The notes under the pieces are model-generated. The model saw nothing but the letters and a program-made list of their open reading frames with translations, was not told the origin of the DNA and did not search any database. From Afipia clevelandensis ATCC 49720 (GTDB taxonomy: Bacteria; Pseudomonadota; Alphaproteobacteria; Rhizobiales; Xanthobacteraceae), in assembly GCF_000336555.1 (NCBI RefSeq), contig NZ_KB375281.1, positions 1,864,030-1,928,029 of the forward strand: a DNA stretch of 64,000 nt, read 5' to 3'. Below, piece by piece: positions 53,373 to 53,406 of the stretch. How positions within the stretch are numbered: position 1 is the stretch's first letter; the number at the start of each line of letters is the position of its first letter. Position numbers and translations under genes: made by a program.

Positions 53373-53385
53373 CCACGCTACCGCA
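53373..53385 (-). promoter_or_regulatory. ops-like element in operon leader
   Basis: On the minus strand 53384-53374 reads GCGGTAGCGTG, identical to bases 2-12 of the enterobacterial ops core GGCGGTAGCGTG; only the first base differs (T). The central GGTAG and flanking CG pairs that RfaH contacts are preserved. It lies between the NusG paralogue (ends 53460) and wbpB (starts 53339), in transcription direction, where such a site would act. Confidence 0.65.
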
Positions 53386-53390
53386 GTCCG

Positions 53391-53406
53391 GGTGACTCTC
53401 GTCACC
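53391..53406 (-). promoter_or_regulatory. leader hairpin upstream of ops-like site
   Basis: Minus-strand GGTGAC-GAGA-GTCACC is a perfect six-pair stem with a GNRA-type loop. It ends six bases before the ops-like element in the same 120-base leader. A pausing or NusG-paralogue-binding RNA hairpin (as for LoaP) is possible; no T-run follows, so it is not a simple terminator. Confidence 0.55.

Follow-up and report, generated by a model that had tools for sequence, protein, structure and literature searches.

In E. coli, a specialised elongation factor is loaded onto RNA polymerase by means of a short signal, ops. The window, by which we mean the whole stretch of 64,000 nt analysed here, carries on its minus strand, in this order, a gene for a MarR-type regulator, a gene for a NusG paralogue, a leader with a hairpin and an ops-like 11-mer, and a Gfo/Idh gene (Table 1). 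This arrangement raises the question whether an alphaproteobacterial leader can recruit, through ops, a NusG paralogue encoded directly beside it, as the original prediction had proposed. The MarR-type gene and the start of the paralogue gene overlap. The 20 ORFs that follow the leader form a glycan run of 24.5 kb in which no gap on the ORF map exceeds 51 nt, and we infer that this run is likely an operon. Pfam assignments for 16 of the 20 ORFs comprised glycosyltransferases, sugar epimerases, an aminotransferase, hexapeptide acetyltransferases and methyltransferases, and also a radical SAM protein, an ABC transporter and an asparagine-synthase-type amidotransferase.

Table 1. Features of the locus in the window (positions counted from the first base of the window).
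Feature	Position	Strand	Basis
MarR-type, EPS-associated regulator gene	53972..54616	-	TIGR04176, 59 bits, below cut-off of 88
Specialised NusG paralogue (RfaH-like), 171 aa	53460..53975	-	Pfam NusG, 5e-22; NCBIfam RfaH; AlphaFold2
Leader, 120 nt, paralogue stop codon to ATG at 53339	53340..53459	-	
Extended hairpin, GGTCTGGTGAC-GAGA-GTCA(C)CCGGACT, one bulged C	53385..53411	-	Fold of -15.0 kcal/mol; covariation in relatives
Inner perfect hairpin, GGTGAC-GAGA-GTCACC, then CGGACT, then the 11-mer	53391..53406	-	
ops-like element GCGGTAGCGTG, ops positions 2-12	53374..53384	-	Exact match
Predicted RNA 3' end of the pause (ops T11 before G12)	53375	-	From the E. coli U11 pause as given in passages of PMC11001881
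Shine-Dalgarno-like AAGGA before the ATG at 53339	53347..53351	-	Sequence reading
First gene 3' of the element, Gfo/Idh/MocA oxidoreductase	52401..53339	-	
20 co-directional ORFs, likely target transcription unit	28868..53339	-	ORF map; Pfam for 16 of 20

The claim that 11 consecutive ops bases lie in the gap between the paralogue and the Gfo/Idh gene proved exact. The element in the window has the GCGGTAGC core and the TG at positions 11 and 12 of an ops element; position 1 is T instead of the G of E. coli. There was a single exact copy of GCGGTAGCGTG within the window and there were two in the whole genome (4.4 Mb, both strands), and from these two copies the chance of a match in a 120-nt leader on one strand was estimated at 2-3 in 100,000, in agreement with the value of about 3 in 100,000 put forward before. 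A covariance model of hairpin and ops found only one strong element in this genome, the next-best match having an E-value of 0.28. The word GCGGTAGCNTG was present in 4 copies in the same genome (G000) versus 48 copies of the mirrored word, so that ops-type words are rare there.

We compared the element among relatives. The protein search found an Afipia MAG whose paralogue is 91% identical. NusG-family matches, housekeeping NusG included, were obtained in 96 of 101 genomes (the window's own and 100 relatives). An alignment was made of 17 elements located downstream of paralogues, 16 from the family and one from another family of the order; its rows were chosen by CGGTAGC, so the seven-base core was selected and the remaining positions were unselected. 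Positions 2-9 and T11 of ops were invariant in all 17 rows and G12 was present in 16, while position 10 was G, T or A. Since position 10 drifts, the conserved core is GCGGTAGC-N-T-G, and the 11-mer as first proposed stands except for this base. Left out of the alignment were L035, which has GCGGTAGC downstream of the paralogue without T11-G12 and gave no model match, and also L036 (a copy about 270 nt downstream) and L039 (copies not downstream), which have CGGTAGC without the remainder of the element. The examined stretches of L025, L026, L027, L029, L031-L034, L037 and L038 contained no CGGTAGC.

The 391 genomes of the family were searched with an element-derived pattern allowing up to one mismatch, and for the paralogue at E<=1e-14. 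The pattern occurred at 98 places in 87 genomes and the paralogue was present in 97 genomes. Both were found in 79 genomes, only the element in 8, only the paralogue in 18 and neither in 286 (Fisher p 4e-55 with the genomes taken as independent, i.e., ignoring kinship). The reversed pattern gave 16 matches by eye count versus 98 for the real pattern, an imperfect control because the mirrored word is far commoner in the window genome. Some of the 98 places, for example G291:C41, G181 and G283, look like chance matches with weak folds.

Among paralogues with 53% identity or more, 51 of 62 had the element 41-268 nt downstream on the same strand; it was directly downstream for 8 of 24 paralogues at 43-53% identity, and for none of the 17 below 43%. 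The expectation that GGTAGCG is conserved beside orthologous paralogues while its surroundings drift thus held for close orthologues, but not for every distant paralogue. The flanks of five paralogues with 54-56% identity (G136, G174, G344, G291, G310) contained no model match, and the paralogue gene of G310 contains a stop. Elements away from the paralogue head other glycan-type operons: in G001 and G014 one precedes a different operon. Two elements each are present in G372 and G401, and at locus L088 (genome G364) the element directly precedes the paralogue gene. At L086:11337-12263 the order is MarR-type gene, element and Gfo/Idh gene with no paralogue between them; the paralogue is found 9 kb upstream, as though it had been moved.

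For 97 of the 98 elements the flank was available (one lacked it), and 93 remained after dropping 4 without CGGTAGC; in the conservation profile of these 93, positions -9 to 9 were selected by the pattern and only positions 10-13 were unselected. Of these 93 elements, 87 are followed within 400 nt by the start of an ORF of 150 aa or more. By eye, these first ORFs differ, many of them resemble genes for glycans, and they include oxidoreductases, epimerases, sialate-synthase-like proteins, aminotransferases and glycosyltransferases; library annotation covered the window.

The covariance model, built from 90 matches of which 87 were from the family, matched 77 of 357 genomes evenly drawn from the class at E<=0.01, with about 4 expected by chance as far as the rough E-values allow. 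A paralogue of this type was present in 82 of the 357 genomes. At this threshold 54 genomes had both, 23 only the element, 28 only the paralogue and 252 neither. At E<=1e-4 (46 genomes with the element) the numbers were 41, 5, 41 and 270, kinship being ignored and the window genome being among the 41 with both and also in the training set; counted by genus they were 35, 3, 32 and 196. Hence 28 of the 82 genomes with the paralogue were without an element at E<=0.01, and 41 of the 82 at E<=1e-4. At 29 class loci (without the window) the hairpin region was followed by GCGGTAGC in 28 and by GCGGCAGC in one, and 16 of the 29 held the paralogue within the locus.

Among 378 genomes of the phylum 29 were matched at E<=0.003, 13 inside and 16 outside the class. 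Ten of the 16 belong to one family, f219; three of five f219 loci hold the paralogue and all five have GCGGTAGCGTG after a stem. The other six matches outside the class were weak (E of 1.8e-4 or more) and may be due to chance. The element thus reaches beyond the family, both to other families of the class, where it again accompanies the paralogue, and to a second class of the phylum. In a tree of 60 proteins the ops-linked rows were spread over the whole paralogue group; E. coli RfaH was unplaced, on a long branch. The proposed ops-directed recruitment beside an own NusG paralogue is supported by the conservation in close orthologues and by the class-wide pattern. A mere chance match of an 11-mer, for which the second exact copy in the genome could be quoted, is refuted by conservation and co-occurrence across family and class, and we regard its probability as negligible.

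Some paralogues are plasmid-borne: of 23 matching records seven were inspected, and the model found an element for two of them. On an Agrobacterium plasmid the element (20.8 bits) lies 2.2 kb downstream of the paralogue, and on a Sphingobium plasmid it (33.5 bits) lies elsewhere than the paralogue. On the Sphingobium baderi plasmid the element (L211:4981-5022) precedes a gene of the O-antigen ligase family by 0.3 kb, the paralogue (L210) being elsewhere on the same plasmid.

The hairpin had been placed 6 bases before ops. The inner hairpin and the CGGACT spacer are exact, but the true stem is longer (53411-53385); as it reaches 53385, the hairpin abuts ops position 2. In the 93 elements, the native upstream arm folded better than the shuffled mean in 84. 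For the 85 of 93 elements with a fold reaching -8 kcal/mol, the gap between the 3' end of the stem and ops was 0-1 nt in 55 and 2-6 nt in 30. The base of the extended hairpin is 10 nt from the RNA 3' end at T11 in the window; in relatives this distance was 10-11 nt in 55 of 85, since the stem ends 0-1 nt before ops, and 12-16 nt in the other 30. Pause hairpins are located 10-13 nt from the RNA 3' end, with hisL at 11, according to passages of PMC10268239. By this measure the window hairpin has the spacing of a his-type pause hairpin, and pausing itself is predicted.

Covariation was scored on the 90 model-aligned matches, one of them from the reverse strand, in an alignment that is fitted by the model and so favours structure. 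The stem scored 0.225 versus 0.157 (sd 0.009) for shuffled alignments, none of 500 shuffles being as high, and at most 0.103 when the stem was slid. One stem pair swaps between C-G (28 matches) and G-C (23 matches). Two other measures were less striking, since 45 of 500 shuffles reached the observed number of pairs with both sides changed and 25 of 500 that of further pair types. Some rows (L020, L087) have a weak or displaced hairpin. The TCACC of its 3' arm was invariant in the 17-row alignment, which, as read from these rows, goes beyond pairing needs; the 5' arm and the loop vary.

We considered whether the neighbouring MarR-type regulator could bind the palindrome as its operator in double-stranded DNA. 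At least 70 of 87 family loci have a homologue of this regulator directly before the paralogue, and the inner arms form a perfect palindrome, but the one strong element of the genome lies downstream of the regulator gene and not at its promoter, and arm spacing, bulge and G-U pairs differ between species. Furthermore, in the examined stretches of L072, L073, L088 and L135, all with elements, no regulator homologue was found. This reading also leaves the fixed ops sequence unexplained, and we consider it very unlikely. Similarly low is the probability that the hairpin is an attenuator, an intrinsic terminator or an RNA processing site, as its position between two probably co-transcribed genes might suggest: no terminator-like site was found in 53000-55000, and the stem is followed by the invariant GCGGTAGC instead of a T run.

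The layout of the element, with a hairpin directly before ops in the leader of a polysaccharide operon, is that of JUMPstart/ops (RF01707), in which a hairpin stands just before GCGGTAGC-N-TG in the leaders of long glycan operons. The report of JUMPstart as a structured RNA, in the passages available, concerns Gammaproteobacteria and a conserved stem-loop (PMC2864571). In E. coli K-12 the stems before ops are CTGG-CCAG in rfb, TTGGT-GCCAG in wza and CAGG-CCTG in waaQ, with arms that vary in step. Unlike the layout, stem and loop sequence are unrelated to the window element, which scored 12.7 bits with RF01707 versus a gathering score of 35, and the three E. coli JUMPstarts scored 12-14 bits with the alphaproteobacterial model. 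From these low cross-scores we conclude that the architecture is common and the sequence outside ops is not. No Rfam family reached its gathering score in 44000-64000 of the window or in 20 related loci.

The protein shares with E. coli RfaH the NGN-KOW layout of a NusG paralogue, and the bases of ops that belong to RfaH are those conserved here; unlike RfaH, it is encoded beside its presumed target. RfaH was its best NCBIfam model (111.3 bits, below the cut-off of 144.5 of the TIGR01955 equivalog), and its identity to E. coli RfaH is 23%. The RfaH side chains named as contacting ops in passages of PMC5995543, K10, H20, R23 and R73, correspond in the alignment to Q15, N25, Q28 and L78, and RfaH E48 to A53 (residues counted by hand). 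Ops recognition must therefore differ in detail from that of RfaH. Of 103 family paralogues 87 were extracted and 65 of those aligned: the H20 position was H in 33 and N in 31, the Q24 position Q in all 65, the R23 position R in 53, the K10 position Q in 49 and the R73 position R in 3. Two AlphaFold2 runs with different alignments predicted the KOW domain as a beta-barrel (mean pLDDT 83.2 and 91.9) and not as the alpha-helical, autoinhibited KOW of RfaH. With a score below the cut-off, the ops side chains replaced and a predicted beta-barrel KOW, the protein is RfaH-like and not RfaH by the tests used.

Monomorphic RfaH homologues described in a 2026 preprint (PMC13015549, seen in part) resemble it in their beta-KOW, their position beside long operons and the lack of some ops-binding residues. 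In the passages available, the tested beta-KOW homologues were active without ops and selective recruitment in cis was proposed. At the loci studied here, in contrast, there is a tight link between the paralogue and an ops-type element.

The ops bases invariant in our alignment are those of the ops DNA hairpin or of the pause in E. coli, as far as described in passages of PMC11001881 and PMC5995543. The latter reports for E. coli that changes at G4, G5, A7 and G8 abolish RfaH recruitment and that the central ops bases are dispensable for pausing. Invariance of bases that pausing does not need argues for reading by a protein, beyond pausing. It also speaks against LoaP-like recruitment, in which the paralogue would mainly bind the RNA hairpin and GCGGTAGCNTG would be only a consensus pause. 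LoaP is likewise a NusG paralogue with a leader hairpin, and its binding to an RNA hairpin of the UNCG type, possibly as its recruitment step, is described in passages of PMC12691694. The conservation of the hairpin along with the element, the 3' arm TCACC being more conserved than pairing needs, and the partial loss of the DNA-reading side chains of RfaH would fit such a mode, but the 5' arm and loop of the hairpin vary. LoaP is known from Bacillus, and the resemblance to it noted in the original prediction turned out to be weak, with 53.3 bits versus the LoaP cut-off of 125 and a GAGA loop, varying between species, versus UNCG. We rejected LoaP-type RNA binding as the main reading and keep it as an improbable rival.

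The element is probably a composite site at which the polymerase pauses and the neighbouring RfaH-like factor is recruited. What we observed is the sequence with its conservation, the covariation of the stem and the association with the paralogue; we infer that the genes are co-transcribed, that the polymerase pauses, that the DNA hairpin forms and that the paralogue binds and acts in antitermination. Transcription from upstream of the genes for the MarR-type regulator and the NusG paralogue would enter the leader, and the extended hairpin would fold in the nascent RNA with its base 10 nt behind the RNA 3' end at ops T11. RNA hairpin and ops together would stall the polymerase at T11, and GCGGTAGC on the non-template strand would form a small ops DNA hairpin with G5 and T6 exposed. 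The paralogue, a product of the same transcript, could then dock on the exposed ops bases and travel with the polymerase through the 24.5-kb glycan run, keeping off housekeeping NusG and Rho.

In a full-text search of openly licensed papers, we found no report of ops in Alphaproteobacteria among the matches listed. Passages of PMC7593976 count 18% of rfaH genes in Alphaproteobacteria, call target finding by operon-encoded NusG paralogues unknown and state that recruitment is described in detail for no member other than E. coli RfaH. The element is thus a candidate recruitment site for a large group, with the paralogue in 97 of 391 genomes of the family and 82 of 357 of the class. It was proposed, in the passages of PMC7593976 and PMC7819879 available, that the reading of ops and autoinhibition were late acquisitions that arose jointly; our finding bears on this proposal because ops here goes with a predicted beta-KOW protein. 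Tentatively, and with somewhat less than even confidence, we suggest that RfaH-like NusG paralogues of proteobacteria were ancestrally loaded at the dual-code element, an RNA pause hairpin plus an ops hairpin in the non-template DNA, which first served operon-encoded factors without fold switching, autoinhibition and the own ops-reading side chains of RfaH being later additions.

The natural variation at position 10, in the T6-to-C variant and in the re-paired stems provides ready-made comparisons. In the T6-to-C variant a like hairpin is followed by GCGGCAGC, as seen in L033:1296-1341 (minus strand), L193 and the middle of L181, and a change of base specificity is possible. The variant adjoins the paralogue in L033 and L193, and in the L181 genome the paralogue is on another contig.
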